In this document: positions 24,011-64,000 of the stretch, piece by piece | Position numbering within the stretch: position 1 is the first letter of the stretch | Layout: every line of letters begins with the position of its first letter | NCBI RefSeq assembly: GCF_010183535.1 | Contig: NC_071331.1 | Span: 19,406,001-19,470,000 of the forward strand | Direction: 5' to 3' | DNA length: 64,000 nucleotides | Source of the DNA: Caenorhabditis remanei | Taxonomy: Eukaryota; Nematoda; Chromadorea; Rhabditida; Rhabditidae | Notes under the pieces: generated by a model | The model's database searches: none | Seen by the model: the letters and a program-made list of their open reading frames with translations, nothing else | What the model was told of the DNA's origin: nothing | Program-made: the position numbers and the translations under genes

Positions 24011-24827
24011 GTTTTCATGAAAGATTCTAAAAGATCAAAACTCATTTCTCCCTTCCTTCCATTTTTAGCACTTTTATCCATGTTTTGTTCTTGTTTTCTA
24101 ATTGGTTTTTCCTTTTTTTATGACGTTAGAGTTGAGGAAACCGCCTTTTTTCAACAGCTTTGGATATACTTCTGGACTGATTTCTTGAAATGTTTGTACT
24201 TTTTTACTGTTTCACCTGGAACAGTATATTGGACAATGATAACAACAGGCCAATCGTCTGCGGAATTTCGTTTGGAATATACAGGATAACGGCGAACAGA
24301 ATCCGATCGTCGATGGATGAAATCCAGTTTTTTTTCAAGGTTTCACGTAAAACAGAACATTTTTTCAAATAAAAATTTAACGGTTTCTCAGAACTGATAG
24401 CAAGTTTCTCACTCATGGCAATGCAGCAACGTTCTCCAATTCATGCCCTTCTAACAAAATAATTATAAAATGTTACAGTTTCAATACGAAAACTTTATCT
24501 TTTTTCTGATTTTGAGTGGTGATACCAAGCGTGCGCAGGACTCGTAGTTGAAAAAGATTAAATCTCATGTTTTTGAGCTTCGCAGGTCTGAAAAGAACAC
24601 CCCTTGACAAGAAAACCGATAACAGATGATTCCAAAGTGAACGCATATTTCCGGGACAGTGCACCAGACCATTTGTAGATAACATTCGGTTTTAAGTGAA
24701 ACAGTAGATTTTTTGAAGTTTATTTTTTTTGGTAGCTTCGCCACTTTTGCATTCACCACATTTTTCCGGTTTTTACAAAATTTCTCTACTGTTTCAAAAT
24801 TAAAATTTCATCTCTTTCGTGTTTTAA

Positions 24828-24848
24828 TGATGCTTCCGTTTCGCGATA
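24828..24848 (+). ncRNA. Predicted 21U-RNA (type I piRNA)
   Basis: Core CTGTTTCA at 24,789; the YRNT start signal is TAAT with its T at 24,828, 39 nt from the core C. The predicted RNA begins TGATGCTTCCG. Its duplicate counterpart is 49,448-49,468. The exact 5' end is inferred. Confidence 0.55.
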
Positions 24849-25567
24849 ATATGGTTCTCACATCATTTTATTATTTCTGAACTAGTTTTACTGTTTAGAT
24901 GAGCACGTGTATGGAAAACTGAGCAAGTCGATGTTGATGAATCAATCGCAGATAATCTCCAGTTTTTAAAAATATTTCTTGAAACAGTAACGTTTTTACC
25001 GTTTCACGGAACACTGATCTGAAACAGAATTGAAAACGAACTGTTCACATCAAAATATTTGATTCTCTTGTTTTCCTATCCGATTCTACCAAAAAAGATC
25101 TACTGTTTCAAAACAGAAACTTCATCTCATTCAGATTTTGAATCACGCTTGGATTTTGCAAATCATAGATACACAATTCTGATCGATTTCTGAAAGTCAT
25201 GAACTAACTACTTTTTCTCGCTGTTTCAGCAAAAAATGATAACTTTCTATCTTATGATTAGGGTCAATTGTCGAATCATTGAAATGGTTAGCAATATTGA
25301 GAACACATGTTACTTCGATTTTCTGAAACTGAACTACTCGATAATCTCAAGATAGGGAGCAACGAATTCCAATTCAGTCAACTTTTTTATTCAAACAGTT
25401 ATCATCTTTGAAAAAAGTATCCAGTGTTTCACAGACTATTCGTTAAAACGGATAACAAACAGTTAGTAGTAGCGTAAGTGGTTTTTATGCTTTCCTAATG
25501 ATATCCTTTCGAACTAAAAATTTACTGTTTCAAAGTGATAATTAAATCTCATTTAGACTTTGTGTGA

Positions 25568-25588
25568 TGTTTTCGTCTTGCAAAAATA
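25568..25588 (+). ncRNA. Predicted 21U-RNA
   Basis: Core at 25,525; start signal TGAT with T at 25,568 (+43). The predicted RNA begins TGTTTTCGTCTT and is nearly identical over its first 12 nt to the counterpart at 50,347. Confidence 0.5.
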
Positions 25589-25942
25589 AGCTATTCTTTT
25601 AGAATTCTAGTAATCAATATTCACCACTTTTTCTCATTTTTTCAGGGAATGTTGTTAGTTTACAGTATGATAAGTGGATTCGATCAAGAGTGATCAAGAG
25701 AGGACACTTATATTGATTTTTTACTGTTTCACTGGGCAGTAATCTGTTTTGACGTTTTTGTTGGCAGTTATTTGTCAGTTCTGACCAGAAGTAAGATACA
25801 ACATTGTAATAGAGTTTTGATTTACTGTTTCACTGGAATCGAAAAAAATCTTCCGAATGAAAAAAAAAAGTTGATGATTAGTTGTGTTTCATTTGAAACT
25901 TACTGTTTCAATATAACAACTTCATCTGTTTCATAGTTTTAA

Positions 25943-25963
25943 TGATGATCCCGTAATCGGTGT
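25943..25963 (+). ncRNA. Predicted 21U-RNA
   Basis: Core at 25,903; start signal TAAT with T at 25,943 (+40). The predicted RNA begins TGATGATCCCG. A second core lies between at 25,926, so two overlapping units are possible. Confidence 0.5.
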
Positions 25964-26699
25964 TCACAGCTTTCTATGAATTCTGAAAACAAGTCAACTT
26001 CACTCACCCAAAATAAATACGGAACGTGCAAATAGATCGTTGTCAGTCATTGCTATGAAATTAAAAAGAAAACAGATAAAATGAAATGTCCTCCTAACCT
26101 GTAAATGTTCAATGTGTTGATGGATTTCCATTACTGTTCCACAGAATACTCATCAGAACTGATAATCAATAGTTGACAGTTTACAATTCGAATTAAAAGT
26201 TACTGTTTCACAACAAAAACTTTACATTGTTGCGATTTCGAAAGATGATTGGTATAGTCGCGACAAAAAAGTTCCGACATTTTTTATTTCGATAATATGT
26301 TGCACAAGTGTGGTACTCTTATAAATTTTCTCATTGTTTCATAGTGCGTTAGTAATCAAAAAGCTAGAGGAGGAACTCACTCTTTGAACACCTCTAGCTA
26401 ACAATACAGACTATTTTTCCGAAAATTTGAACCGTGGGCTATTTGTGGGTCCTCCAGTTCAGATTATATATTCAATCAACCCTTTCTCGTTGTATGTTAT
26501 GTTATTTTTTGCGTAGAGTTCGATAAGAATGTTGAGAAAAAACTGAAACCGAAAATTTATACTGCTTCAAAAATTAATTTGTTTTTTTTTGTTTTTAATT
26601 TTTTCCGAATTAGTTAGTTACTCAATGCATGATTATTAAACTTCATACAGATCTCTCTGCATATGTTTAAATTTCTAGTCATTTCTACTATTCTAAAAC

Positions 26700-27486
26700 A
26701 TTCAGAAATTCACTTTGTGATTTCATTGAAACTTTATTTTCATTTACAAAGTTTTTTACGTGACTAGAAGCCTGGACATCTGTGGGAGGGGCTTAACGTG
26801 CTGTGCTCATGGTTTTTTTGCGAAAATTCCTATGCGGCGCAAAAAAGTGTGCGGCAAGTTGCAAAAGGTGTGAGGAGCTGAGACACGCCCTGCTCTATTT
26901 TCTTGAAATTCAGATGTTTATGGATTAATCCGAGGTAAGCTTATAATTTTGATGAAACAGTAACATTTATTTCTGTAATTTTGATGGTCTAAAACTGATT
27001 GAAAATAATTTTGAAGGCAATTTACTTACAATGATGCGGATTTTTTCATTCTGGTACTTACTAATATCAAATTTTCAAAATATATAATCTAACGTTCTTG
27101 AAACAGCAATCAGAAGAGTTTTTTAAACCGATATGTTAGGAATAAAAGAGTAGCCAATTACTTTACAGTACAAAAATAAATAGTCTTGAAACAGCATTTT
27201 TTTTTCGAAAAAATGATTCGCTGTTTCAAAAATTTATTGTTAAGAAGAAATTCATCGTAAAGGTAATTATATTCTCGATAAAACATATTTTTGCGGCACG
27301 GAGAAAGTGGGATGTCCCGGCTCCTCCTACTTTAGCAACATGCCGGGCACTCTTTGGCGCCGCAGTTAAATTTCATTTTCGATTTACCTTTTTTGTAGCG
27401 AAATTTATGAAAAACTGTGGTCTTTTTGAAAATTTTCCGCGAAAATCCAGCTCGAAAGGATCGGAAAAGAGGCCCTCCATAGAGGA
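26700..27486. repeat. Segmental duplication copy A, block 2
   Basis: Aligns with about 60,480-61,535: shared TTTACGTGACTAGAAG / TTCACGTGACTAAAAG, GTGTGCGGCAAGTTGCAAAAG and TTTTGATGAAACAGTAA. It lacks the MITE seen in copy B at 60,721. Confidence 0.75.
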
Positions 27487-27622
27487 CTATTAGCACAGCA
27501 CGCTTCTTACAACCGCTCTCTACCGTAACCGAAGAAAAGTTTGTGAGAAATTGAGAGACTCAGAGAAAAAGAGACATTTCTCAAGGACATTTCGGTGGAG
27601 CGCAGTTGTAATACACGTGCTG
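27487..27622 (+). mobile_element. ~140-bp palindromic MITE, copy 8 (interrupted)
   Basis: CTCTACC arm first. The last bases (CTAATA) are displaced to 28,776 because a 1.15-kb element inserted at 27,623. The counterpart in copy B (61,536-61,672) is uninterrupted. Confidence 0.85.
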
Positions 27623-28775
27623 CGCACGGCCGGGATTTTACTACTCGTGGCCTAGAAAATAGTGCGACGAGTTACGCAGTAAGCAGCGAAATTTGTCTGC
27701 ATAGATTGCGTCACGGTGTTTGCAGACTGCGTACCGTAATCGCATGAAAAATTCAGATTTTCTGGCGAGTTTTTCGGAAATTTGACGCAGAAAAATAATA
27801 AATGTATTTAAAAAAGCGAAAAAATGTACCAGAAGATAGAAGAAGGCTTTATCGACGTGAGGAAATGCGAAATTTCGATGTCTGACCAACTCAATTCACA
27901 TTCTGGGCAAAAACTCCTCTAAGTTTCAAAATCGGCCATTTTCTTTGAAAAATAACATTAGCGAATATTATATTTTTTACAGAAAACGTCAAATTGCGTC
28001 TGGTTTATCTTTCTATCCTGCTCCGAATTTTTTTAGTCACAAAACGACGAAATTATGAAGGATTTGGAGCCAATTTTCGACATTTTTCAATTTTTCTCGA
28101 AAACGAAGTCATGAACCTCTACTTTTGAACATGTCAAAACGTCAAGAACGCAAAGGCGGAACTTTTGGCAAATTTTTTCAAAATTCGAGGAGAGCATCTT
28201 CGAGAAAAGTCATTTTTAGCTGTTTTTGGCCCATTTTTTGCATGTTTTTGTCTTATATCTCGAAATTGAGTTCATGAACCCCCATTTTTGAACATGAAAT
28301 ATTGTAGAGCACGTGGCTGTGCACGTTCTGGTAAATTTTTAAAAATTTTGAGGAGAGCATCTTCGAGAAATTTAAGTTTGAAGTGTGTTTTTTCGAGTTT
28401 TTCGAAGATTTTCCGTTTTCTCGAAACGTGAGAAATCAAATCCGAGAGTTTTAGCATATTTTTACGAATCGGACGTGACTGGCGACGTTTCTGAATTACT
28501 CTCGCTTTTCCAACAACTATTCTGAGCCTGAAATTGAGCAACTTTTACACAATTTGTGTTTTTGGCTACATACGGTGCAATCTGTAATTATTTTCAAAAC
28601 TTTCCGGTTTTCTGTGATGTTTCATCGATTTTCAACAACTCAGCATTAAAAAAATTCCGGAACAATGATCAAAAACACCGATTTTTTGCTCCGAAAGTTT
28701 GCAATGCTTAAGGTCACGGTGGCCGAAGTCACTGATTTTTCTAGGCCACGAGTAGTAAAATCCCGGCCGTGTGCG
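27623..28775. mobile_element. 1.15-kb element with CGCACGGCCGGGA inverted ends
   Basis: The left end reads CGCACGGCCGGGATTTTACT; the right end is its near complement (AGTAAAATCCCGGCCGTG then TGCG), with ~35-bp TIRs including CTCGTGGCCTAGAAAA. The interior has a direct repeat (about 28,090-28,215 and 28,260-28,385, both with GAGGAGAGCATCTTCGAGAAA). No transposase is seen. Absent from copy B, so it inserted after the duplication. A fragment lies at about 20,980-21,055. Confidence 0.8.
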
Positions 28776-28777
28776 CT

Positions 28778-29393
28778 AATAAAAAATTTTGAAACAAATA
28801 AAACAACTATGTCTCATTGTTCCCAGACATCCACCCACTTCCTGTTCCATTTTCCATTTACTTCTCATCAAAAATTCCTCAAAAAACTTGTCTCCCCCCA
28901 TCCACCCTCAATAAAATGTTCTACCAAATTCTCCCCCCTAAAAAAAGTCAAAAGTTGAAAATCTCCTCTTTTTGTCTCAAAAATGCTCCCAATGGAACTC
29001 ATTCATTGCCTTCCCCTCCCCCTTTTTCCTCTTTTTCTCACCAGAAATTTCTCAGTTTTTTTGTTTCAATATTTTCTGATTTTTGGTGCCCCTATTCTAT
29101 TCCTTTTGATTCATAAGATTTCTTTCACATATTCTTCTTTTTTCTGACGTTTTTACCCTTCATTCAATACTTTTCTCGGTGTCAAACTTGTTGTCTTCCG
29201 TTCCAAAAAGTGAGAATTCTGTTTCGAGGTGAGGTAAGAAACTACTGTTTCACTTCGTTGAGATACACGATATTTTTCCACGGTTTTTAATTTTTGAACT
29301 ACTAACGTACGAATTTTAGTACCTTGTCTTCTTTCGCAATCAATGTCGAAAGTTGGCAAACTTGTAGTTTTGAAACGTCCCGGAGACACCATA
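28778..29393. repeat. Segmental duplication copy A, block 3 (best conserved)
   Basis: Very similar to 61,685-62,400: shared CCATCCACCCTCAATAAAAT, GAAAATCTCCTCTTTTTGTC and CAATGGAACTCATTCATTGC. Roughly the first 400 bp are far better conserved than the rest of the duplication, so this stretch may be constrained or converted. It is mostly C/T-rich and has no convincing ORF. Confidence 0.8.
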
Positions 29394-29651
29394 CTGTCGA
29401 AAAAATAAAGTTTCGACAAGGATTTTCTAAAAAATTTTCGCGGGCTGGAACACGCAAGCGCATGAAGCTGTGGGCGGAGCTTAAACTGCAAGCTTAATTA
29501 AGCGGCGCGGTTCTAATTCCAGTTGTTTTTTTCCAAATTAAGAAGCGCGCCTCTTGCACTTTAAGCTCCGCCCACAACTTCATGCGCTTGCGTGTTCCAG
29601 CCCGCGAAAATTTTTTTGAAAATCCTTGTCGAAACTTTATTTTTTCGACAG
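29394..29651. mobile_element. 258-bp foldback with TA target duplication
   Basis: Ends CTGTCGAAAAAATAAAGTTT and its complement, flanked by TA at 29,392-29,393 and 29,652-29,653. The corresponding site in copy B (about 62,390, ACTATACAAT) is empty, so it inserted after the duplication. Tc1/mariner-like target. Confidence 0.88.
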
Positions 29652-29919
29652 TACACAACTTTCAAAATCAGTAGCATTTACAGGCATAGGAAATGTCTAT
29701 TACAGGATAATCATGAAAATTGTGATAAAAGCATATCATTTTCTTACTTCTCAGAAACAGTAACTCAAAACTTACTGTTCCATCAAAACATTTATCGACA
29801 ATCAGCATATTGAAATCATTGTGCATATGAGATAAAACTTTGGGATTCAATATTTTTTGAAACATTTTTTTTGAAATAGGTGATTAATGTAAGTTTTGAT
29901 TGATTATAACAAAACCATA

Positions 29920-30180
29920 CTTGCCATTTGACGGGCCGGCCCGGTCGGTACAGGGTGGAATTTTTTTAAACTTTAACACTTCAAAAATAATTTTCAATAA
30001 CTTTTCACCGCAAAATTAACTGTAGAACTACTCATATTCGTCAATTTACTCAAATTATAGTTCAAAATGCCCCAAAAACTGTTTATTCAAAAATCACTGC
30101 TGAAAAAACTTGTTTTTCGGGAAAAGGTCGCTTCACCCGGGCCTGGCTGTTGAAAATTTGGAAATAGTCCCGGCTCGTGA
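29920..30180. repeat. GGGCCGG-containing repeat, copy 1
   Basis: CATTTGACGGGCCGGCCCGG followed by sequence like that at 52,560-52,830 (CTGTAGAACT, CAAATTATAGTTCAAAATGCC, TTTTTCGGGAAAAGGTC). An old dispersed element sharing its GC-rich tip with the hairpin at 62,508. Confidence 0.6.
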
Positions 30181-30287
30181 CAAGTATGTAACAAATACTT
30201 CTGTTTCAAAAGTTTATCAATAGTGACCGATTGGAGCGTGTTAAGAATAAATAAGGTAAAGAAACAGTTATTTTGAAACAGTAATAT

Positions 30288-30832
30288 TGTCGTGGAATTA
30301 AAAAGTCTTAATTCACGACCTTGAGTATTAAGCCTGGTCCATTGCCAGATTTACACAATTTACTCAAAATATAATAAATAATAAAATGAACACTAACAAC
30401 TGCGTGAAACGTGAACCGTGACCAACCATACTGCAACCAATACAGTTCTGGACGTGCTCTCCTAAACTCAACCTGATGACCTTACGATAAGGATCGCTCT
30501 ACATTCAGTGCATAAAAGGAAGAGGAAGCCGTCAGAAGTCGTCCTCTCTCAATCACTCACTCTCCGATGTTCTACCGTGTCTGCCGAAGGAACCTTGGAA
30601 AACGGATGTGTGAATCTCTACATGGAGTGCCGGCGGATGAAGCCTACAAGCTTGGATCAGGGATCAATCCAACACCTTCACCGCCAACTACGGCAGCTCT
30701 GGAGAAGCCTGATTTCAAGTGCAAGTGAACTATTTCGGTCATTCATGTAAAGTTGTTAGTTTTCTCCTCTTTCTGTTGCTCTCATATACTTAGTTTGACA
30801 CGGGCCCACCGTCCCTCAAAGGTGTCATTACA
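30288..30832 (+). mobile_element. Solo LTR with perfect 5-bp target duplication
   Basis: 545 bp, starting TGTCGTGG and ending CATTACA (TG...CA), flanked on both sides by AATAT (30,283-30,287, 30,833-30,837). It has a TATA-like GCATAAAAGG at about 30,510. Copy B at 63,470 has the uninterrupted site (AGTAACATTTCCAGAAG). No internal retroelement genes remain. Strand is a guess from the TATA-like word. The ORF at 30,508-30,750 lies in the LTR and is not supported. Confidence 0.85.
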
Positions 30833-32850: not shown

Positions 32851-32919
32851 GTCCGCATTTTTATATCTTAGATCAATTATCGATTTCGACATAAAAATCA
32901 GGAACACTATCAAGAATAC

Positions 32920-33936: not shown

Positions 33937-33963
33937 GTTTGTCTTGATATTTTTTCAACTTGA

Positions 33964-34436: not shown

Positions 34437-36218
34437 TTTTATTTATTTATTTATTTATTTACTTCAAGGGATAGGAGGCTATAAGATACAAAGAAGACTT
34501 GAAACATATCCCTCACGAGATAGTCTCAAGTAAAGAAAAAAAAATGGACTAATAAGGTGCATGTCATAAAAAGAGTAACGGGGGGGAAGGCAACAATTGA
34601 AATGAATACAACGGGTTCGAACTGAGATATGGAATTGCGATCAAGGGGAATTAAAGGAACTAGGCAATTAAAGGCAGGGAATAGAAAAAAAACTGTTAAT
34701 TATGCAACAAGAAGGGAGCAAGAAATATTAGAACCGGGTGATTGAGGAATCAAGTAAAATGATAAATTGTGAGGGAGAAAGAAAAATATTTACATTGTAG
34801 GTAATGGCATTCCAAAACGGAACAGTAAAAGAGAAAAAGTTATCAGATAGAGGAGATAGATAGACAAGAGACATGGGTCTTCTGGGAGAGTTTGAGAGTC
34901 TGACATAGGTGTTAAGGAAGGGGAAGTGAGATGCGCCAGCAATGAATTTGTAAAGTAAGAGTAATTGGGATTTGAGTCTACGGTGTCTAATGGAGTGCAT
35001 TGAGAGGAGTTCCAGACGTTGCGAGTAGGAAGAGAAAGAGATGTTGCAACGCTGGAGAGTTTTTCTAGAGTATACTCTGAGGGTGGATTCCAGAAGTCTA
35101 GAGAGATGAGATGAGGGGGAAAGGCAGAAAATAACAGAGCAATACTCCAAGATAGGAAGAACATAAGTTTTAAATAAGAATGAGTAGAAAGCAGGATTAT
35201 TAGACTTGAAGGATTTTAAAATCTGGGAGCAACGAAGTCGGGCAAGAGCCACGGTTCGACTAATGTGAGCACGGAACTTGAGATCAGGTTCAACAAGCAA
35301 GCCAAGATCACGAACGGAGTTTGAGTCCAGAATGGGAGAACCCGCGATAAGGAACTGATGATGAGGGTTGAGAGAACCTAAGCGAAGTAAACCCGTTTTG
35401 GAATGAGCAAGAGGAAGGAAATTGGATTCAGCCCATGTAGAGACTAAATCAATGCCTGCTTGAAGACTGGACGGGAGGTGAGAGTAGATTTTAATATCAT
35501 CAGCATAGGCAGCCACATGCAGGTGAGGAATATCATTCAAACTGAGTAACAAATCGTTGATGAACAAGAGAAAGAGTAAAGGGCCAGATACGGAACCTTG
35601 GGGAACCCCCGAGGAGATAGATGCGGAAGAGGGATCAATGAAGCTGTTGACTTTAACGGAAAAGGATCTAGAGGAAAGAAAGTCAGAAAACCATGCTACA
35701 AAGGGAGGGGAAATGCCAAAAGAGGAAAGCTTGTTGAGAAGAAGGTTGTGGGGAACTTGGTCAAAAGCTTTCTGGAAATCAAAGAACACTACATCAAGGG
35801 TTTTGTGAGTTTTAAGAATAATATTGTAATTGGATATGACCTGAACTAAAGAAGAGGCGCAGGACCGTTTAGCTAAGAAACCATGTTGATGAACTGAAAG
35901 CTTATGAGCAAAATCAGATTTGATGCGATTACAGATGATGCGCTCGAAGATTCTAGAGAAGGGATCAGTAAGGCTTATCGGACGGTAGTTATTAGGAAAA
36001 CTGGCATTACCTTTCTTGAGGACAGGGGTCACTACGGCTTTTTTCCATGATTGTGGGACAGTAGAGGTGCGGAAGGAATCATTGAAGACAATGGATAGGG
36101 GAAGGGCAAGAGTAGTGGCGCATTTCTTGATAAGAAGAAATTTGGCAAGATGGGGTGAGAAACCACAGCGGGGCGGCAGTTTACGTAAGGAGTTCTCAAT
36201 TACCCACGGCGCAAACAA
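34437..36218 (-). mobile_element. 5'-truncated CR1-type LINE retrotransposon
   Basis: One open frame on the minus strand, 36,218 to 34,728 (496 codons), encodes a LINE reverse transcriptase: NYRPISLT (residues 78-85), FFDFQKAFD (145-153), GVPQGS (204-209), AYADD (237-241), then the thumb and the conserved HRRLKSQLLLLYKF region. No endonuclease domain is present, so the element is 5'-truncated. The 3' end is an (AAAT)n tail at about 34,437-34,463, as expected of CR1/LINE target-primed insertion. The frame has no stop, suggesting a fairly young copy. The 5' junction (about 36,195) lies directly against the PKG leucine-zipper exon; the first ~8 codons (MFAPWVIEN) may be flank. Confidence 0.9.
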
Positions 36219-39200
36219 ACACGTGAAGCATTGTTGGCTGAGTTGGAGCTGAAAGATGATATCATTGATCAGTTGAGAAAAGAGTTGGCTGAGTATCGAA
36301 TGCAGAATTCAACGAGAAAGACGGCAATTTCATCGGAACCCGATGTTCAAGTCAAACGACCGATTATTGGGAAGAGTGATGAGTGAGTTATACTTTTCTC
36401 AGTAGTTGTTACAACTGTGCTCCACCGAAATGCCCTTGAAAAATGTCTCTTTTTCTCTGAGTCTCTCAATTTCGCACACAATTTTCTTCGGTTTCGGTAG
36501 AGCATGGCTGTAAGAAGCGTGCCGGGATAATACACTGAAAAACAAAAATTTTCTGTTTCAAGTGGAGTAGGAAAATAAAGGAAACTAATTTTCTCACTGT
36601 TTTTTTCATGATGCTGGCTTAAAAATGTTCAATCTTATTTAATCTAATTTTTCTGTTCTCTAGACTATAATATGGCATCATGAAACCAAGAAAAATTGAA
36701 ATATATATTTCTCATGTAGGGATAGGATACGGACTGAAGCGATCTCTTTCATATGATATTTTAAAAGTTGGTGAAATAGTAAATTTTTATGTGAATCTTT
36801 TTGACAATCTTTTGACACTTCACCAATTTTCGCAACTCGAATTATTATATTCTGAAACTCCCAAACTGTTGTAGATTGCGTTAGAAGTGGACAACATACG
36901 GAAAAGTTAGATTTGAATGCCTTGTTGATAGCAAATATAAACGGGATGTGGTTGCGAAACGACGAGTTTCAAAGCGTCTTAAATTGATATAAAAACGATG
37001 AAAGTGAAACCGAAAAGCATTTGCGTATTAGTTGTTCTTATATTCAATTGAAACTTGATGTTTTGATGAAACAGAAATTGAAAAAAAAAGATTTTCAAAA
37101 GAGGAAGCTTGTTTTTCGTATTTTTTCCCATGTTCTGAATCTATAATTTACCGTTTCAATAAAAGCTAAACAACAATTTAGAAATAGAACAATAGAGAGG
37201 CTATCCGAGTTACTGTTTCAATTTAAAAAAATGTTTAGTGAAACAGTATATATCATTCTTATATATAAAAGACAAGTGGGCATTGTCTGAGGCGTTGTCC
37301 GCAACGGATTCTGAAAGAGAAGAGAAACTGAGCCAGCGGGCAAAACCTAACCAGCGTGCCTTGGACAACGACCGTCGCTTTAACGGAACGAAAATAAAAA
37401 ATCCCGGAACGAAAAAAAAATCCCGGAACAAGAAAAAGATCCCGGAACGAAAATGTTCAATCTATTCCTTGAATTTTTGCGGAGTTATATTGTTCCAGAG
37501 TACCGAAAAGAGTAGACGCGGGTTTGAATCCTCCCGGGTTAGAAATCAATAAAATTATATTTGAAATTCCTAAAAACAGGACTTTTGTAAATCTAGAAAT
37601 CAATAAAATTATGATTGAAATTCCTAAAAACAGGGTACTTTTTATAAAATTAACTTCCCCCACCATTCTTATCTGTGTCGGTACCGGATAGACTCGTCGA
37701 TCAGAGGATGTAGTAGTCTATAATACGCGGGCTGAAGTTTTCTTCAGTAGACGCGGGTTTCTGTATACAGGTGTACGGTATACAGGTGAACAGGTAAAGA
37801 GGTATACCGTAGGGGGTACGGTAGGGGGTACGGTATTCAGAGAGTTTTTAATTATAGGTGAACAGGTACACAGGTAAAAACAGGTCCCCCGGTGTGTGGT
37901 ACTTACCTGGAAACTATGAACAGAGGTATGATGAATTACAGGCCTTTTTTCAGAGAGGTAGGTATTGCAGGCCTTTTTTTCAATTACAGGTACACAGGTG
38001 ATGACGTCACCCGTAGGACGGAAAATTCTTCTAGAAAGGCAGGGTGGAAAGTTCCTCCTCCATTCTACTTACTGTCAACAGTTGATTTTTTTCGGAAATA
38101 CAAATTTAACACGGAAATCAACGACTGAAAATTGCTTCTACCGCAATTGGTTTTCGATGGATTTCAAGGACATGACTGCCGGACAAACTTCTGATTTCTA
38201 AGTCTAATTCGTTATGTTTTCTTCTGATTTTTATCATTTTTAGTAGTTGAGTTTTTTTTCAATTCCTCAAATAGAATTTCTTTATCAGAAAACAGTGGAA
38301 AATTATTACTGTTTCAAGAAAAACCTCCAACAAACAGTCTTTGTGACTTTTATTATTTTTTTGCATTTTACACACACATCAATTTACTGCAACGCAACGT
38401 ATTAAATTGAATTTGTTACATTGGTTCAAAAAAACATCAGCTTTGATCCAGTTAACTTTCGTTTTTGACGGAATAGTCCGAATTCTCACTGTTTCAGAAA
38501 TTTTAAAAAATTGATCACGATCTGATTAAAACATTGCAAAGTTGTGTTAAAAAATTGTAAGAATTGAACGCATTTTTTTTCAAAAACGTACTGTTTCAAG
38601 GAACAATCACAGCTCGGGCAAAGTTATTATCTTTGATCGCATACTCACAGGGGTGCGAGGCGTAAGGTCCGCAACGAAAAGCTTTGAATTTACCGGCCGA
38701 GTCGCGATGCGTTTGCGTCGCGTTTTTCATTGAAAAATACGACAAACACACGCTAAACTTGAACTTGGCACTCAGCCAAGTCCTTTTTTGCACCGTGCCA
38801 ACCGCTGAGAGACGGAGCGCGTTTACGTGACCTTGCGTTTTGCACCCCTGTGCATACTAAATTCTATTCCAGTGTTCAACATGTCGACGAGTTGCAAAGC
38901 GTCTAAATTGATATAAAAAGGATAAAAGTGAAACTGGATTTGTTTATTAGTTGTTCATATTCCAATTGAAAATTGATGTTTTGATGAAACGGAAATGTTT
39001 AACAAATTTTATTTTAAGAAGAAACTTGATTTTTCACAGTTTTCTCATGTTCAGAATCTATAATTCAATGTTTTAATGAAAAATTGAGTAACAACATAAA
39101 AAAATAGAAAAACTATCATGCAGGAGAACTAGAGTCACTATTCAAATTATTGTTTCGATTTAAAAATTAAAAATTGTTTAGTGAAACAGTATATATTAGT

Positions 39201-46537: not shown

Positions 46538-47103
46538 TTATTTCGAAACAAAATTTTTTTCAACTCCCTGTTTCAAAATGTTTTATTGAAAAAGCATAGA
46601 AAATTAGGATTGATCTTTTCATAGTTTTTTATACGAAACAACTTTCCAGTTACAAAAAATGGCATATGTGAAACTTCGCATTTTCCAAGCGTTACTGTTT
46701 CTCAAAAATCTGAAACAGTAGATTGCAAGAGTGCATTGTACTGTTTCAAAACTTCATACCGACTGACTGATGACTTCATCTACGAGAAGTAATTACTTTT
46801 CAAGCAAAAAAATTTATTGTTTCAAAATGCTTTGTTGAATAACATAAAAACAATCAGAATTGATGAAATACGTTTTCCACCACAAACATTAGAGAACACT
46901 TTTTACGGAACAGTTTAGTAGTTCAGCTCATTTATTTCATTTTTCGATCATAACTAAGTAACTGCATCAGAAAACTCCTTTTTTAGAATTCGATTGCAAT
47001 GTGAATTACCTTCTTCATATTGAAAAAGATTTTATTGAAATCTGATACAGTAGATTTTTTTGATATCCATAAATCAAAAATCAAAAGTTTACTGTTTCAA
47101 AAA

Positions 47104-48870: not shown

Positions 48871-49447
48871 TTAGTGCTGCATTTCTAAAAAAAAGATCAT
48901 CAAATTTTACTGTTTCAATACAAATACTTCACATCTTCCTTAATTTAAGTGATAATATTAGTATGAATTTTTAGTCGTAGGCTAACAATATTGTTAATGT
49001 TTCAATGAGTACGTTTCTTGAAAACTGAGTTACTACTAGTGATCTACGAAGTCATGACTTTCGGTGTTAAAGGCGCATCTAGTTCATTCGAGATTTCGCG
49101 GAACGGTCTTGTAGTTGAAAATATCAAGTACCATGTTTTTGAACATTGCAGGTCTGAAAAGAACTGCAAATCATGTTTTCCGCTTCGAGACCATTTTGTA
49201 CAAAGTAAATGCGCCTTTAACATCTCCGGAAATGTGTTCGTGAACCGATAATAGATGATTCCAAAAAGATCGAAAGACGATTTATAGATAACCTCCAGTT
49301 TTTCGTGAAACAGTAGATTTAAAAAAAATTAAATTTTTTGGTAGTTTTGCCACTTCTCCAGTCACTGTAATCATCCGATTTTTGCAATATTTCTCAACCA
49401 AAACCTACTGTTTCAAAGTTAAATTTTCAACTCTTTCATGTTTTTAA

Positions 49448-49468
49448 TGATGCTTATGTCGCGCAATA
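49448..49468 (+). ncRNA. Predicted 21U-RNA
   Basis: Core at 49,408; TAAT with T at 49,448 (+40). The RNA would begin TGATGCTTATG; paralog of 24,828. Confidence 0.55.
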
Positions 49469-50346
49469 CTAGGCATGGTTTCTAAATAACTTTATTATGT
49501 CTGAATAACAACATATTCATGAATGCATCGTAGATAAGCTCCAGGTTTTAAAACTATTTCCTGAAACAGTAATCAAAAAAGTGTTTTTTTTTGTGTTTCA
49601 CGGAGCACTGATCTGAATCGGAATCTACTGATATTTGAATATTTGCTTCTCTTTTTTTTATTGATCTGATTCTTCAAAAAATCTACTGTTTCAAAGTAAA
49701 AACTCAATTTCTTTCAGTTTTCCAATGATATTTTTGTTTTACAGAAGTAAGATTCAATACTTTAAAAAAAATCTTTTTCTGAGAGTAATAAATGGAACAA
49801 TTTTTCTCGCGGTTCCATCAGAAATTTGTTATTTTCGATCTAATACTCATAAAATGGAGCATAACATTTCTGTTGATTTTTACTGTTTCACGTGAAAATT
49901 TTAGACATTTCGGAACTGACTAATTAAAATCTGCCGAAAAAGATGAATTACCTCCAAACAAACTCAAATTTTCAATAATGCTTTTTTTGAAATAGTGTAA
50001 CTTTTATAAACACTGTTTCACGAAAAAAAGATTTATAATGAAATGAAATTGTTAGTGGTTCTCCGAATTGAGGCTTTAGATAATTTTTGAATATAATTGA
50101 TTAATAAAGAGTAACATTACCGCGAATCATTCGCAGACGAGTTCCTATTCAATCAACTTTTTGATTCAAATTTTTATCATCTTTTCAACTAAAAATTTAC
50201 TGTTTCACAACCTATTCATTTGAACGGGTAACAAATGTTTTATTGTTTTAATGTTTATTTTTCAAATAATCTCATTCCACCAAACACTTAAACTAAAAAT
50301 TTACTGTTTCAAAGTGATAATTTCATCTCATTCAGACTTTCTGTAA

Positions 50347-52830: not shown

Positions 52831-53739
52831 ATTGTAACATTACATTTTGTGTGAAACAAAATAACTTTTTCCACTGTTTCATAGAATTTTGTTCAGATAA
52901 TTTTTTAATTGCTTGTATTGGTAGTCGGTTGTCTTCAATAGGATCAATAAATAATATCTGCCACAACAGCAATGCAAAGTATCTCTGATACTTAGATAGT
53001 GAGTAAGTTTAATTTTCATTTGAAACGGTGAATTCGATGATTCCTCATCATGTTGAGACAATTCACTGTTTCAAAGATTTTCCATTTAGGGATATTTGGT
53101 GATAATTTATATCAGATTCTTTGGAGAATTAATATTTCAGAATGATAATCCAGAGTTTCCAGTTTTGTCTGTCTCTCCCCCACTTCATCTTATTCCAAAT
53201 TTAGAAAAAATGCAACATTTCCTATTTATTTCTCACCTCTTGATCCCTCTTCTCCTTCAGTTTCTTTCCCGGAAACAACGTGCAAAACAAGCGAAAAAAA
53301 CAGAAATACACATGAGAGAAGTGGGCGGAGTCTATTTTTCTCATATGAGAGAACTTGGATTTTGTTGGGTAAAAAAGAAAACATGAGTGCGGTTTTTTGA
53401 GTTTTTTAACTTTTAATGGTTTCAGTTGTTGGAGAATTAAATTTCTCATCAAGACAAGTTTTGGAAAGGTAAGTTTTACAGCCTAGTTGAAACAGTAATT
53501 TTATGTTTTTACTGTTTCAAATTTTTCAAGAGCTCTTTAAGTTTTAATTATCAGTACTGGACAAATGTAAAATTAAGCAAATATCAGAAATTACAAGGAG
53601 TATTAAACAAAAATAAAATCACTACAAGAATTATTAGTTTTTTGCTGAAACAGTAAATTTTAAAATATAATTTCTATTCCCAAACCCTCAAGTTTGTTGC
53701 TTGAACCCCTTCTCGAAACTGATGTACTTTTCTGAAACA

Positions 53740-53866: not shown

Positions 53867-54523
53867 CTTAGATATAAAAAATTTCCACGGGAAATACCAA
53901 TTTCATAATCTCAGAATTGATGTATTGAAAAAGTTTTGTCTTAAAGTTTATGACTGAAACAGTAAATCTTTTTGAATTCTCACTGTTTCAAACTTTTGAA
54001 GACAAGAAAATATCCATAGCTCACTATCAGCATTAACAACTCCAGATAATTTCAAGCAATATTAAAATGTTGTTGAAACAGTGATTTTTTTCTTTTTTTC
54101 TTGTCCAGAATCCATTTTTCTTATTCCCCTTCCTTTTTCTATCTCCCAATCCAGATTCCAATCGATGACGTCTTCTTCTTCTCCCATCCCATCCCCTTCC
54201 ACCCACAACTTCTTATCCCCCAGAGAGACTATTCCCAGAAATCTCGAAAAAAAAAAGTTATGACGTACTTAGAACACTCTAGTGATACACTAGACGATGT
54301 GTGTATTCTCAAAAAAGTGCGATTTTCGAAAATAATTCCCGTGGGAAACGAAAAGAGATGTGGAGTGAGAGATAGAGTTAGGGGAAAGAAGTGTGAAATT
54401 TTAAGCAAAGATTTCGAACGTTTTGTTTTTCTGTTTCACTCGTTTTATTTGTATTATACTCTGTGTTTGAAAACTCAATTAATTTACGGATGGTACCGCT
54501 AAAACAGTGTATTTAGAGAGTTG

Positions 54524-55047: not shown

Positions 55048-55049
55048 AA

Positions 55050-56419: not shown

Positions 56420-56990
56420 AATTTACTTGAAAAGGCGAAATATTTTTCCTGTTTCAAAAAATTAGAAAATAATTGTTTATAAAGTTTCATCATTGCTCGA
56501 AATGGTCAAATTGTTACTAACTTGAAACTAGTCATTTTTCAAATATTCTTGTTTTCCGCTGTAAAAACTCTCCGTTTCAAAAGTTCTTGAAAACAAGTTG
56601 ACCAGTTTGAAAGCTGATTTTTTTTTACTGTCGTCATTTTTCGTATTCGTTTTCTCAAAAACAACTGTTTCAAAATCAATTTTGTAAAAGTTGGTGATTT
56701 TGACTAAAGCCGTTCACAGAAATCTAGAATTTATCAAATTCGGTTATGACACAATGAGTTCAAGTTTCCCAAATGGTCAGTAGGATTTAATTCTTTTCAA
56801 TATGGAAAACATTTAAAATAAAGTTGAAAGAGTATACAATGGGGAACTTTCCAGACAAAGCAAAACTAATTTTACTGAAACAGTAATATTTTTACTGTTT
56901 CAAAAAGTTTGAAAATTATTTCATAACAGAATAGTTTTGTTGCGCAGTGTATTAGTATGCTGATTGGAATTTTAGATTTGTTACTCTTTC
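56420..56990 (+). repeat. Tandem duplication unit 1 (pairs with 57,180-57,660)
   Basis: Shared GAAATATTTTTCCTG, ACCAGTTTGAAA.CTG and ACTAATTTTACTGAAACAGTAA. Confidence 0.82.
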
Positions 56991-57093: not shown

Positions 57094-57179
57094 TTTCATT
57101 TTCACAAAACACAAAAGAAAATTATTTTTTCCAAAAAAGAAATTTATGTGGCAATATGCAGAAGATCATTTTCCTTCAA

Positions 57180-57660: not shown

Positions 57661-58091
57661 TATGTAACTGTAGTAATCAAAAGTAGTTTATAAAACCTTT
57701 TTTTGAAGGTGCAATAATAGTGAAACGTCAAATTTGAATTTAAATTTAAATAAAACAACTTTTTCCTTTTTCAAAGTGTTAATGAGACATTTTCACTTCA
57801 ATAGTTCGAAGTAACAACTTTTTGATATTTGACTAACATCGTCGCCTTCTCAGAAAACTTTTACTGTTTCAAATGCTATAAATCATATTTCTCATTTCTG
57901 AAATACCCATTGCTGATGGCAGAAGAGTTACTGTTGCAAAGAACTTTTGAATATAACGGTATTTAGTTTGAAGATAGTAAAAACTGGAATTAATAACCAA
58001 TCCAAGATAAATATAGACATTCGTGATTCATATAAAGGCACAATTTTGTAATTTGGAAAAATTGACACTATTTCTCAGTTCTCAAATCTTT

Positions 58092-58235
58092 TATTTGCAC
58101 ATCACGATTCTTACAACCTCGCTCTACCGAAACCAAACAAAATTGTGTACGAAATTAAGAGAATCAGAGAAAACGAGACATTTTTCAAGGGGACTTTGGT
58201 GAAACGCAGTTGTATGAACTGTGCCAAGCTAATAT
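58092..58235 (+). mobile_element. ~140-bp palindromic MITE, copy 19
   Basis: CTCTACC arm first, diverged right arm (TGGTGAAACGCAG). Duplicate of copy 17 with flank. Confidence 0.82.
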
Positions 58236-59109
58236 TGAAAACAATTTTTCTGTTTCAAACCTTGAAAATAAAACTTCTAAAGTTCGTATGATGATTGGTA
58301 AATACATAGAATTTTTCCACTATTTCAAAAAACTTTGATTATTCGATCTCTTCAATAATAATCGATCAACTATTTCTAATCTTCTATGCAATTACGTGCA
58401 AAACTCCTCAATAATTTGTTTCCCACGATAATCTTCTCATTCAAAAGAAGAGATGACTTTAACCCCAAAAATCAAACACTTATTCTCACAAGGTTTCATT
58501 CATTTTTTTCCGAGAAAAAGATTCGGAAAACGGAGAAAAAAAGGGGGAGGGGGGAAGTCGAGTCAATTTATCAAAAGAGGAAATGAAGAAGACGAATCGG
58601 CGGAAAAAAAGAGAAGGTGTCCTTTTTCTTCTTATTTTTAAAGAAAGTGTGTTGTGCACTTGCTATTAGTTTTCTGTTTCAATGGTTTCTTAATTATCTG
58701 GGGGTAATCTGAAAGTGATATCTAGCAAGTAGGTCCTCTATTTTTCCTATTTCAAAAGTTTGATTCAAAAAGCTTACTGTTTCGGAAAACAAACATAAAT
58801 TTACTGTTTCATAAATTTTTCTCATCTTGCTTCGATACTTTTCGAACGATTCGAAGTCCTTTTTATATTCGTTATCCCTCATTTTCCATTTTATACTTGA
58901 AATTATAAAAAAAAATGTTCCAAATACTTATTAGTCTCCTACAGAGCCAATAATTGTCTGAGAATATTTTTTCCTGTTTCAAAAAGTTCTGTAAAAACAT
59001 TAGGTGTATCATCATTGCTCAATATTGAAATTGAAGATTGAAACTTCTGAAAAATTGCTTGCTGTTCCAGATTGGTTCAATGTGTTATAGAGATTCGACA
59101 AGGCTTTAC

Positions 59110-59300
59110 TGCGAGATAGAAATAGTAGACAATCTTTTCTCGATTACAGTTTCAGCAAATCTGCATAACTTTGTTAATTCCGGAGTTCATAGAAAACCGT
59201 ATCATCTAGACATTATGTACAGTAAAATTATTATGAAATTACTGTTTCATTAGTTTTTGATGATTCAGTTTAGTTTTACATAAAATATTTACTGTTTCGA
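59110..59300 (+). repeat. Local duplication unit 2
   Basis: Partner of 55,050-55,250; includes the exact core at 59,242. Confidence 0.8.
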
Positions 59301-59456
59301 ATGAGTTTGAAGTTACTAGTTGATTGAAACATTTGGTTCTCCTCTTAATTTGTAAAGAAAACAAAACCACTTCGAGTGTCCTGTTTGTGAGGCTTCACAA
59401 GAAAGACCCAAAAATATTATTTACTGTTTCAACTAATTTTGAAAGTAATTTGTGGT

Positions 59457-59520
59457 ATTTATTTATTTATTTAAATACGTCCGTGAAAATACGTACTAGG
59501 GTCAAGGGGGTATAAAATTA
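59457..59520 (-). mobile_element. Possible LINE 3' fragment with TTTA tail
   Basis: (ATTT)n at 59,457-59,480 followed by ACGTCCGTGAAAATACG...TCAAGGGGGT; resembles the tail end of the CR1-type LINE in structure only. Confidence 0.35.
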
Positions 59521-59530
59521 TGCTCTGACA

Positions 59531-59661
59531 CTATTAGCTCGACACAGTTCTTACAACTGCGCTCCACCGAAATCCCTTTTTTTCTCTGAGTCTCTCAATT
59601 TCGCACACTATTTTCTTTGATTTCTCAAGAGCGCGGTTGTGAGAAGCGTGCCGTGCTAATA
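59531..59661 (-). mobile_element. ~140-bp palindromic MITE, copy 20
   Basis: CTCCACC arm first, short central deletion, ends CTATTAGCTCGACAC and GCCGTGCTAATAC. Confidence 0.86.
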
Positions 59662-60144
59662 CTGTCTCAATTTTAATTCAAATCACTTATTTTTTCTAGT
59701 AACTCTGCTCCATATCCACTCCCCAAGTCCCTCCGTTCCCCTCCTTCATCTCCATCTTTCCAACATTCAATCCGTCAAAAATCCTGTTTTCTTTCCCACA
59801 TAAATTGTAGTTTTAAGACGGAAATCATTTTCGTAAAAGGAAAATCCAAAAAATTGTGTTCTGAAGAAAAAAAAGTAGTTGAAATTGTAGGTTCCCTTCG
59901 AGAAGAAGGGAGGAGCTGTCACTCAAATCCATTTCATTTATTGAGTTAGGAGAGAGATGGGACACTTTTCGAAATGAATTCTGTTACGAGTAGTAATTCC
60001 TTCTAGAAATGTCAATATCAATGGAAAAGTGTATGGTAGAGTTCGATAAGAAAGTTGAAAAAAATTTGAAACAGAAAAATTCTACTGTTTCAAAAATTAA
60101 GCAATTTTTTTTGTTTGAAATAGTTAGCTACTCAGTGGCAATTA

Positions 60145-60424
60145 TTATTAGCCGAGCAAATTTGTTACAACTGCGCCCCGCCGCAAACGAGAGAGTATCG
60201 GCGAGAGACGCAGATTTTTTTCTCGCGCCAACAATTATTTTCACAGTTTTTGACCTATTTTCACTATTTTTCGAAAGTTTTTATGTAATTTGTTCTTAAA
60301 AACAGCGAAAATAGGTCAAAAATGGTAAAAATATTTGCTCGCGCGAGAAAAAATTCTGCGTCTCTCACCGATACTCTCTTGTTTGCGGTGGGGCACAGTT
60401 GTAAGAGGGGATGGGCCGCTAATA
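60145..60424. mobile_element. 280-bp variant relative of the palindromic MITE
   Basis: The arm tips (TTACAACTGCGCCCCGCCGC and complement) resemble the CTCCACC arm of the family. The arms extend to about 130 bp with AACGAGAGAGTATCGG and TTTTTGACCTATTTTC. Copy A (about 26,625) lacks it. Confidence 0.75.
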
Positions 60425-60720
60425 TACAACTTCAAACTTATTTCTTTATGTATGTTCCGTGAAATGTTTAGTCATTTCTAGTATCCTAAAACATTCTCAA
60501 GTTCACTTTCACAGTTTGTGATATCAATGAAACAGTATTTTTTCTAAAAATTTTCACGTGACTAAAAGGGGAGGGGCTTAACTTGCTCCTTCCACTTTGG
60601 CATTAGCGTCGCATGGTTTTGTTGCGCCTTCTTTTTAGACCGTTTCCTAAAATTAAGCGAAACAAAATACTGAACTGAATGGTTCCTAACTTTGTTTAAA
60701 AGTGGATAAACAGATAAATT

Positions 60721-60863
60721 ATTATCTCGGTACAACTCATACAACTGCGCTCCACCGAAATCTCCATGAGAAATGACTCGTTTTCTCTGAGTCTCTCAAT
60801 TTCACACACTATTTTCTTCGGTTTCGATAGAGCGCGGTTGTAAGAACTGTCCCGAGCTAATTA
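60721..60863 (-). mobile_element. ~140-bp palindromic MITE, copy 21
   Basis: CTCCACC arm first; ends ATTATCTCGGTAC and CCGAGCTAATTAG. Absent at the matching point of copy A (about 26,840), so it inserted after the duplication or was lost there. Confidence 0.86.
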
Positions 60864-61535
60864 GCTGCCGCGGTAAAAAGTGTGCGGCATGTTGCAAAAG
60901 TAGGAGGAGCTAAGACACATCCCTGCTTTACTTTCCTAGATGTAAAATTTTAGAGGTTTTCCAAACAAAGTCAATGTTTATAGATTAACCCGGGCTAAGT
61001 TATAATTTTGATGAAACAGTAATTTTTTTTGAAGTTTTAATGTTCTAAAACTTCTTGAAAATACATTTTAAACAGATTTACTTACAATGATTCGGATAAA
61101 CATATATTTTGATTTTCATGTTTTTACAACTCACTAATATCATAATTTCAAAATATAAAATCTAGCATTCACTTGAAACATTAATCAGAAAAAATTTTTT
61201 TAACCGATATTTTAGGAATCACGAACATACGAGTAGCCAATCTTCTTCCTATTAATACTTTACTGTACAAATAATAAATCTTCTTGAAACAGTAAAAAAT
61301 CGCTGTTTCAAAAATTAATTGTAAAGAAAAAATTCATTGTAAAGGTAATGTAAGGCACAGCGGACATCAGAGATAGTTTCCAATAAAACATAATTTTTGC
61401 GAGAAAACTGAAAATTTGGAAGTCCTTTGCAACTTCTTTGCGCCGCAGTTGAATTCCATTTTTGATCTGCTTTTGTTGTTGCGAAATTAAGGAAAAATAG
61501 TTGTCTTTTTGAAAATTTTCCGTAAAAATCCAGCT

Positions 61536-61672
61536 TGATAGCACACTTCTTACAACCGCGCTCTACCGAAACCCAAAAATTGTGTGCGAAATTGAGAGAC
61601 TTAGAGAAAACGAGTCATTTTTCAAGGAGATTTCGGTGGAGCGCAGTTGTAAGAACTGTGCCGGGCTGATAT
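61536..61672 (+). mobile_element. ~140-bp palindromic MITE, copy 22
   Basis: CTCTACC arm first, left tip lost; same position as copy 8 in duplication copy A, so it predates the duplication. Confidence 0.86.
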
Positions 61673-62507
61673 ATGGAAGACATAATATATAATTTTTGAA
61701 ACAATAAAACAAGTATGTCTCATCCTGTTTCCAGACATCCCTCCCCCATTTCCTGTTCCATTTTCCATTTACTTCTCATCAAAAATTCCTCGAAACTCTC
61801 CCTCTCCCCCATCCACCCTCAATAAAATGTTCTAGCAAATTCCCCCCTAAAAAGAGTCGAAAAGTTGAAAATCTCCTCTTTTTGTCTCAAAAGTGCTCCC
61901 AATGGAACTCATTCATTGCCTTCTCTCCCCCTCTTTTCCTCTTTTTCTCACCAGAAATTTCTCAGTTTTTTTGTTTCAATATTTTCTGATTTTTGGTGCT
62001 CCTATTCTATTCCTTTTGATTCATAAGATTTCTCTCACATATTCTTCTTTTTTCTGACGTTTTTACCCTCCGGCGGCGCAAAAAGAGATTTCTTCTTTTC
62101 AAAAAGATTCCTTTCAGTAGAATACTCGCTTCCCTTTTTCCATATATCTATTCAATACTTGTCTAGGTGTCAAATTTTGTTGTCTTCCGCTCCAAAAAGT
62201 GAGAATTCCGTTTTGGGATGAGGTAAAAATATCACTGTTTCACACGATATTTTTCCACAGCTTATTAATTTTTGATAGACCTTTCATCGTCATAATTTTA
62301 GTACATTCTTCCGCAAATCAGAAGAGATTAAATTTGAAAGTAACGAAATGCCTCAGTTTCATAAAATGCGGTTTTGAAACGTCCGGAGCCACTATACAAT
62401 ACCAAAAACCGCCTTTGAAAATGTTTTTCAAAATATAGCTAGAAAACCGACGTTGATAATGACCTACAATTTTCTTACTTCTCAGAAACAGCAACTCAAA
62501 AATTACC

Positions 62508-62886
62508 ATAGTTGTCAAGGCCCGGCCCGGCCCGGCAAGGCCCGGCAAGGCCCGAAGGCCCGGGCCGGGCCGGGCCGGGCCGGTAGAAAATTTTCAAGGC
62601 CCGGCCCGGCCCGAAGGCCCGGCTTCAAAAAATGGCCCTTTTTTTCCCAATTTTTTTTCTCGAAATTTTTTCAATTTTTCATCGGAAATGTGTCCATTTT
62701 TGACTATTTTTCAGAATTTCTTCTAATTCTGACTGATAGTCGAAAATTTGACTTTTTCGCGAAAAAATTCAAAAAAATTCAAAAACTTTGAAAAAATTTG
62801 AAAATTTGACTTTCGCGCCAATTTGCCCGGGCCTTCGGGCCGGGCCTTAAGCCCGGCCCGGCCCGGGCCGGGCCTTGACAACTATG
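62508..62886. repeat. GGCCCGG hairpin element
   Basis: Ends CATAGTTGTCAAGGCCCGGC and its complement GCCGGGCCTTGACAACTATG. The left arm contains many tandem GGCCCGGC/AAGGCCCGGC units and an internal AAAATTTTCAAGGCCCGG repeat. The interior is AT-rich with TCAAAAA and TTTGAAAA words. The ORF through it (PGPARPGKARQGP) is repeat sequence. Flanks are AATTAC / AAAATTAC. Confidence 0.85.
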
Positions 62887-64000
62887 AAAATTACTGTTTC
62901 ATCAAAAACTTTTATTGACAATCTATAAATCGGATACATTTCGCAAACCCTATAAAAACAAAATAGCGAAAAAATAGTTTTGACATTACCAGCTTTGAAA
63001 TGTAAATAGTTTTTGAAAAAGGTGATTAGTGTAGATTTTTATTAATTACCAGCTTAGTCTGGCGCGTCTTTGGCGCGTTTTTTCGCGGCTACGCCACTCG
63101 AGTTCACGTGAAAACTTTTTTGATGATAATTTGTATTCTTGGAAATTAAAATGAAATGCCGAGATTGTTACAGAAATTCGGGCAAACCCCACATGTGTTT
63201 TATATAGAAGAATGATAACAAACACTTCTGTTTCAAATATTTATCAACAGTTATCTCGTCGCGTTTATATGTATTGATTTTAACATAGAAGTTTTTTTGA
63301 ACATTAGTCTTAACATGATTTTACTGATACATCATCTACAGAACATTTTGGATATCAGTTTCAAACTTTCTCATTTAAAACCGACATCAATAATAAGAAA
63401 CTCAGGAGCATGGAGAAATTCCAACACGTGGACATTAAATGAAGAGAAGAAACAATTATTTTGAAACAGTAACATTTCCAGAAGTTAGTAATTAGAAAAG
63501 CATAGAGTGAAAGTGCTCAAAAGAATAATTGAGCAATGTTTCTTTCCTTTGTTCTCGCCACACATGTGATATTTGTTGCATACAAATTTCTAACATTTTG
63601 ATACAAAACTGATCTCTGAAAATCAGTTTCATTAGCTCAAGTGAAATTATTATTTCACTGTTTCCAATCAATTAGTTCTAAAATTATTTCAATTTGGCCA
63701 GTACAATCTTGTTCTGATCAGAAATGAACTTTGATTGAATTTAGTTTGTAGACCCTAACTTTTTATAAAGTTGTGAGTTTAAACTTATGTTTTTGTTTCA
63801 AATCTACACACTTCATAATTTTTGCTGTTTCATTTGGATTAAATTTCATAAAAGATTAACCTTTTTCATTAATCGAATTTAATAAAAAAGGTTAAGATTT
63901 TGAACATCCGATTTCCGACTTACAATTAAACACAATCTACCGCATTCAAAGTATTGTTATTGCTTTTTTTGAGTCACTAGCCTTCAGAATTACGAATCAA

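Follow-up and report, generated by a model that had tools for sequence, protein, structure and literature searches.

The 64-kb window of the Caenorhabditis remanei genome analyzed here (positions 19406001-19470000 of contig C4) is densely populated with the octamer CTGTTTCA, the core of the Ruby motif that marks promoters of type I 21U-RNA genes, i.e. of genes for PIWI-interacting RNAs (piRNAs). The excess of this core and its fixed distance to a downstream YRNT initiator lead us to assign the region, with a probability of roughly 0.96, to a clustered type I piRNA domain, which is interrupted by a gene island and in which the cores would serve as promoters of single-unit genes. The cluster is ordinary in kind: it represents a known type of locus, which a preliminary description had correctly recognized from the letters alone. 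Directly visible are the excess of the motif, the exact distance, a weak AT-rich dip, a core-poor island and, elsewhere in the genome, genes of the PIWI clade.

Exact matches to CTGTTTCA were scored on both strands of the whole window and in its neighbourhood, which comprises the window plus 100 kb on each side (C4:19306001-19570000; 264 kb). The genome searched comprised 130,466,896 bases in 186 contigs. The window contains 128 cores (80 on the plus and 48 on the minus strand), close to the approximately 127 copies previously counted by eye, and the flanks contribute 327 further cores, giving 455 in the neighbourhood. Between positions 24207 and 63832, where the preliminary description had placed the cluster, 117 cores are present, 77 on the plus and 40 on the minus strand. 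This corresponds to one core per 339 bp and agrees with the number, the spacing of about 340 bp and the occurrence on both strands given there. In contrast, Markov models derived from the window predict 4.1, 6.7 and 10.1 copies at orders 1, 2 and 3, respectively, and the maximum in any of the 30 simulations per order was 16. The 839 other permutations of the octamer occur on average 2.8 times in the window, and the most frequent one, ACTGTTTC with 102 copies, overlaps the motif itself. Enrichment over such controls, which had been suggested as a check, is thus borne out, and CTGTTTCA ranks first among all octamers of the window when the strands are pooled. In bins of 2 kb, the first 8 kb of the window hold 4, 0, 3 and 3 cores, the bins from 8 to 24 kb 0 or 1 each (one core in total) and those beyond 24 kb between 1 and 13 each; across the neighbourhood, counts range from 0 to 59 in 27 bins of 10 kb (the last of 4 kb). 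The cluster is therefore as dense as described, but it is not confined to these limits, because the window is made up of DNA of this kind over its initial 7.4 kb as well, with cores and initiators of their own (Table 1).

Alignment of the cores yields the consensus TTA-CTGTTTCA-AAA, with TTA preceding the core and A-rich sequence following it. The 14-mer TTTACTGTTTCAAA, formerly held to be the usual form of the motif, is exact at only 11 of the 128 window cores, although its leading TTA and its A-rich end do reflect the consensus. Genome-wide, this 14-mer is found 381 times as compared to 25 copies of a reversed control. Among the first 100 of the 381 places listed, 96 are located on C4, two each on C1 and C2 and none on C3, and since the listing follows contig order, the count for C1 (2 of 381) is complete. 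C4 is very probably chromosome IV, the chromosome on which type I genes form large domains in most Caenorhabditis species, and the strain is presumably PX506. The matches listed on C4 form two stretches, one reaching up to 13.52 Mb and one beginning at 18.86 Mb. The 5.3 Mb between them (C4 13.52-18.86 Mb) are free of exact TTTACTGTTTCAAA among the matches listed, which recalls the two-domain layout of C. elegans.

A test independent of the motif was provided by the distance between core and initiator. YRNT was scored at offsets of +8 to +99 from the first base of the core for all 455 cores of the neighbourhood, and the frequency of its T at +45 to +47 was compared with that at 32 triplets of other offsets. 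Indeed, a single dominant peak was detected, with T at +45, +46 and +47 in 83, 146 and 92 cores, respectively (z = 8.2, 19.2 and 9.8). The next-highest offset was +79 with z = 3.2, and a high value at +9 stems from the letters of the core itself. In total, 321 of the 455 cores carry T at +45 to +47 (control 108.1 +/- 9.6, largest 128), and the flanks alone behave similarly (228 of 327; control 77.7 +/- 8.5). The corresponding value for the window is 93 of 128 cores (control 30.4 +/- 4.5, largest control 39), and for the region 24207-63832 it is 84 of 117 (control 28.3 +/- 3.9), in line with the earlier statement that transcription starts at YRNT about 40 nt downstream. Octamers permuted by at least four changes have T at these offsets in 2091 of 8795 cases, i.e. 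23.8%. Counted from the end of the core, the offsets correspond to 37-39 nt and thus fall within the approximately 35-42 nt that define type I genes. In C. elegans the G of the core is most often found at -44 from the 21U start (PMC3597512), and therefore the first base of the core, C, is located at -46. The modal core-to-T distance of 46 nt in C. elegans type I genes hence equals the mode at +46 observed here (PMC3597512), i.e. the C. elegans value is retrieved from raw sequence of C. remanei. The window yields 93 predicted 21-mers (58 on the plus and 35 on the minus strand), which are all distinct and none of which recurs within the neighbourhood. Their predicted 5' U positions (U1) make them checkable against existing libraries.

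Several points weigh against the assignment as a piRNA domain. YRNT is missing at +45 to +47 in 35 of the 128 window cores (27%) and about 30 matches are expected by chance, so the set of cores is impure. The share of C4 holds for the first 100 of the 381 places of TTTACTGTTTCAAA, and the number of the chromosome that bears the cluster is itself deduced. Finally, the dip in GC content downstream of the predicted starts is weak. GC content amounts to 0.383 right after U1, to 0.276-0.292 across 22-43 nt and to 0.335 by 50-60 nt. For 22-43 nt past U1 as a whole it is 0.283 (6741 bases) as compared to 0.325 at 60-90 nt (9630 bases). A fainter dip is also present at cores lacking the initiator (0.303-0.323 at 22-43 nt versus 0.339-0.350 at 60-90 nt). 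A low-melting pause signal has been described at nematode piRNA loci, where it is weak in species with clustered genes (PMC6436959). The dip agrees with this signal in direction, but it lacks specificity. Correction for background lowers the proportion of window cores with initiator arithmetically from 72.7% to approximately 64%, or about 82 of 128. We estimate that about 80 of the 128 exact cores are real promoters, to which a smaller number with degenerate cores would have to be added. Together with the motif excess and the initiator distance, this estimate accords with the dozens to more than one hundred piRNA genes that had been proposed.

Core-bearing repeats exist in this genome, and the octamer could belong to a dispersed repeat or a transposon whose copies accumulated here, and could lack promoter function. 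The most conspicuous case is L029 (C2:1139501-1149500), a patchwork of diverged repeats with 55 exact CTGTTTCA in 10 kb, 2.75-fold the mean density of the window; parts of it are also found at C4:23.7137 Mb and on contig C79. However, the initiator is found at +45 to +47 in only 2 of these 55 cores, versus 93 of 128 in the window; one of the 55 lies too close to the end of the locus for the test. L029 was considered as an off-cluster piRNA island and rejected on account of this low rate and of its diverged repeats. The comparison with the window demonstrates that core counts alone are insufficient and that clusters can be filtered well by the distance to the initiator. In 3-kb loci from the left part of C4 (L005-L008) the initiator is present at 8 of 10 cores, and at the single core of L004 on C2, whereas it is absent from both cores of L001 and the one core of L002 on C1 and from all 22 cores of L003 (C2), which overlaps L029. 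The other core-bearing repeat is a palindromic element on C1 and C2 (L030, L031) resembling a miniature inverted-repeat transposable element, with a length of ~735 bp, arms of ~309 bp that are 97-99% identical and one inward-pointing TTACTGTTTCA per arm. No match to it was obtained within the 264 kb, and it served together with L029 as negative control. Core pairs at similar spacing (481-488 bp) are found at C2:4123004, C2:12890506 and C3:3127618, which are candidate copies of this element. Within the neighbourhood itself, 156 of the 455 units do have a relative of at least 50 nt, but the remaining 299 have none among the other units there (at least 50 nt, E 1e-6), and the largest group comprises five members, a pattern resembling ordinary local duplication of piRNA units. 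Hence, the case that would have spoken against the preliminary description, enrichment owed to one transposon family, is contradicted within the 264 kb by 299 units with no relative among the others, 93 predicted 21-mers that do not recur and the missing palindromic family, and we regard accumulation of a repeat as extremely unlikely.

A role of the cores as binding sites of forkhead factors or another regulator, making them enhancers or marks of a domain instead of piRNA promoters, would fit the report that forkhead proteins interact in vitro with a probe containing CTGTTTCA (PMC3597512). However, a mere binding site would predict neither a one-sided YRNT at a fixed distance of 45-47 nt nor the rarity of second cores on the same strand at up to 60 bp (the 264 kb hold 8 such tandem pairs, versus 31 at 61-100 bp), and this explanation is extremely unlikely. 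The 27% of window cores devoid of an initiator at the optimal offset could also be taken as a sign of decay, the cluster consisting of relics of once-active promoters. This is highly improbable, given that core and initiator are kept together in 93 of 128 cases, a rate that the neighbourhood as a whole matches (321 of 455).

For the type I piRNA domain favored here, the factors, the transcript, its loading and its function in the germline are carried over from C. elegans. Each TTA-CTGTTTCA-AAA core would recruit an upstream complex related to the small nuclear RNA-activating protein complex (SNAPc), with PRDE-1, SNPC-4, TOFU-4 and TOFU-5 as its components. RNA polymerase II would then start at the R of YRNT, 2 nt ahead of the T, and stop after a few tens of bases, and the capped precursor would be trimmed to a 21-nt RNA with 5' U to be loaded by PRG-1-type PIWI proteins. 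Four Piwi_N domain matches above the cut-off are present in the genome, of which C1 carries three and C3 the fourth. Each is near PIWI-domain matches, and they are the candidates for prg-1. As we expected for piRNA genes, the window has no Rfam match at the gathering score. Sequencing of C. remanei 21U-RNAs has been performed previously, and according to a review their number exceeds that of C. elegans by a factor of 2-3 (PMC6468775).

The type I genes on chromosome IV of C. elegans share with the present locus the core, the AT-rich surroundings and the distribution over both strands (PMC3597512, PMC6317315, PMC6436959). Their domains are clusters of clusters, which are split by active, piRNA-poor chromatin, and the gene island in the window fits this arrangement (PMC6436959). 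C. briggsae likewise possesses the Ruby motif and a YR initiator, and has three large clusters, two of which reside on chromosome IV (PMC9683057). However, C. briggsae also has a cluster on chromosome I, whereas C1, which we assume to be chromosome I, accounts for only 2 of the 381 TTTACTGTTTCAAA copies (PMC9683057). Type II 21U-RNAs have the 5' U and YRNT in common with type I, and ordinary start sites that are transcribed in both directions are reported to be their source (PMC6468775). They differ in lacking the Ruby motif (PMC6317315, PMC9683057), which is present here.

Cores in close vicinity are preferentially arranged back to back. In the neighbourhood, 42 pairs have core starts 17-47 bp apart. 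Of these, 35 are divergent, whereas 5 are tandem and 2 convergent; with orientations at random, two tandem pairs would be expected for every divergent one. When strands were shuffled in blocks of 20 cores (5000 trials), a mean of 9.6 and a maximum of 20 divergent pairs were obtained, and shuffling of positions within 10-kb or 2-kb bins (500 trials) gave means of 8.8 and 8.5 and maxima of 18 and 17, respectively. The initiator is present on both sides in 18 of the 35 divergent pairs, on one side in 13 and on neither in 4; with 49 of 70, the cores in these pairs possess it at the same rate as all cores. The window alone displays a modest excess, 7 of its 10 pairs at 17-47 bp being divergent, a number reached in 14 of 5000 shuffles. 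Genome-wide, 342 divergent pairs occur at this spacing (reversed control 2), along with 142 tandem pairs (84 + 58; controls 19 + 8) and 47 convergent ones (control 2), of which 38 are on C4. Divergent pairs spaced 100 bp wider number 151 (control 8). The excess of close divergent pairs is thus true, since these pairs are 2.3 times as frequent as the wider-spaced ones, and the scarcity of close tandem pairs is as expected if overlap of units of ~75 bp is to be avoided. The number of 342 overstates the independent events, as some pairs are copies of each other and at least five, according to the first 50 of the 342 pairs listed, are located in L029 repeats.

We tentatively suggest, at somewhat below even odds, that C. 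remanei has many of its type I piRNA genes organized as bidirectional promoters, in which two back-to-back Ruby cores separated by 9-39 bp fire outward from one shared open stretch; the unit would then often be the divergent pair rather than a single autonomous cassette. In the simplest mechanism, the upstream complex would create a shared nucleosome-free stretch. At piRNA genes, this complex has been reported to dictate where nucleosomes are positioned and how accessible the promoters are (PMC11262695). No description of divergent or bidirectional type I promoters was found in the literature searched, mostly papers available without subscription (including PMC3597512, PMC4015492, PMC6317315, PMC6436959, PMC6468775 and PMC11262695), which is no proof of absence; bidirectional start sites are mentioned in PMC6468775, but solely for type II. 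Within this scope, the excess of divergent pairs is apparently new to the literature. If it holds in C. elegans, it would bear on the opening of chromatin for two piRNA genes by one complex, and on the origin of piRNA genes.

Neighboring cores also tend to share a strand at larger distances. Among adjacent cores of C4:19306001-19570000 that are more than 60 bp apart, 255 of 401 pairs have the same orientation, compared to 206.4 +/- 9.7 after shuffling. Following removal of related neighbors, same-strand pairs amount to 83 of 134 at 60-200 bp (shuffled 68.9 +/- 5.6), 80 of 125 at 200-500 bp (64.4 +/- 5.5), 34 of 57 at 500-1000 bp (29.4 +/- 3.8) and 30 of 56 beyond (28.8 +/- 3.8). As the excess is smaller without related neighbors, old local duplications may account for it, although detectable duplication explains part of it only.

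The composition of the core was assessed by the initiator signal of its variants. Exchanges of the last base retain the signal, with z = 4.5 for CTGTTTCC, 4.3 for T and 3.2 for G at this position, whereas all 15 single changes inside GTTTC give z values of at most 2.0. The 1528 GTTTC pentamers of the 264 kb show an initiator excess of approximately 270, of which CTGTTTC supplies 246 and CAGTTTC, CCGTTTC and CGGTTTC together about 25. No initiator signal was detectable at ATGTTTCA, GTGTTTCA and TTGTTTCA, which pooled have 33 of 129 matches versus 29.1 in the control (264 kb). Cores with C in first position are therefore the sole ones with initiator signal in the neighbourhood. In C. elegans, the canonical GTTTC core is associated with 88% of male and 54% of female 21U-RNAs, a C-first core accompanies 21U-RNAs of the male germline, and in transgenes a ATGTTTCA core leads to female expression (PMC3597512). 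Female-enriched 21U-RNAs of C. elegans also have other first bases, in contrast to the 264 kb studied here (PMC3597512). Because the signal is limited to C-first cores and these are linked to males in C. elegans, the neighbourhood looks purely male-type, which we put forward as a weaker reading.

Table 1. Features of the window (positions counted from its first base; piRNA units and gene identities are predicted).
Feature	Position	Strand	Remarks
Main cluster, 117 exact CTGTTTCA	24207..63832	both	84 with YRNT, T 45-47 nt from first base of core
Left cluster segment, 10 cores	518..7406	both (2 +, 8 -)	initiator at +45 to +47 in 8 of 10
Example of predicted unit	49408..49474	+	core 49408-49415, predicted U1 49454, predicted 21-nt RNA to 49474
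Divergent pair, example of putative bidirectional piRNA promoter	53488..53519	53488 -, 53512 +	initiator at both cores
Divergent pair	56876..56902	56876 -, 56895 +	initiator at both cores
Divergent pair	60067..60092	60067 -, 60085 +	initiator at both cores
Divergent pair	27187..27228	27187 -, 27221 +	initiator at both cores
Divergent pair	61285..61310	61285 -, 61303 +	initiator at + core
Divergent pair	53955..53990	53955 -, 53983 +	initiator at - core
Divergent pair	46711..46748	46711 -, 46741 +	initiator at +45 to +47 in neither
Gene island, one core (19357 +, with initiator)	7407..24206		EED/mes-6-like exon, cks-1-like exon, two coiled-coil paralogues, F-box-associated frame
Stretch taken as exons of gene similar to mes-6 (EED, subunit of Polycomb repressive complex 2)	10971..13271	+	similarity of frame 12864-13271 to EED chains of solved structure, E 1e-6
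CKS-domain frame, cks-1-like	13836..14324	+	Pfam E 3.8e-21
Two coiled-coil frames, common C-terminal block	16140-17300, 18756-20162	+	no Pfam match over cut-off
Reverse transcriptase frame inside cluster	34728..36308	-	RVT_1, E 5.6e-35; overlapping second frame 34790-35215

The EED-like exon at 12864-13271 is taken to be part of mes-6. The frame at 10971-11309, which has no match in PDB or Pfam, is tentatively assigned to the same gene. The order of the EED-like exon and the following cks-1-like frame (12864-14324) is that of a C. elegans operon. A putative gene for the writer of trimethylated lysine 27 of histone H3 (H3K27me3), the mes-6-like one, is located in a core-poor island among clusters that are said to bear H3K27me3. 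The coiled-coil frame 18756-20162 is 96% identical to the hypothetical protein GCK72_015257 [Caenorhabditis remanei], and the protein search with this frame listed three proteins, all from C. remanei. It and the frame 16140-17300 are perhaps a young, lineage-specific pair of duplicates. The F-box-associated frame of the island scores barely above the cut-off (23.3 versus 22 bits). The reverse transcriptase element within the main cluster is probably of the type without long terminal repeats.

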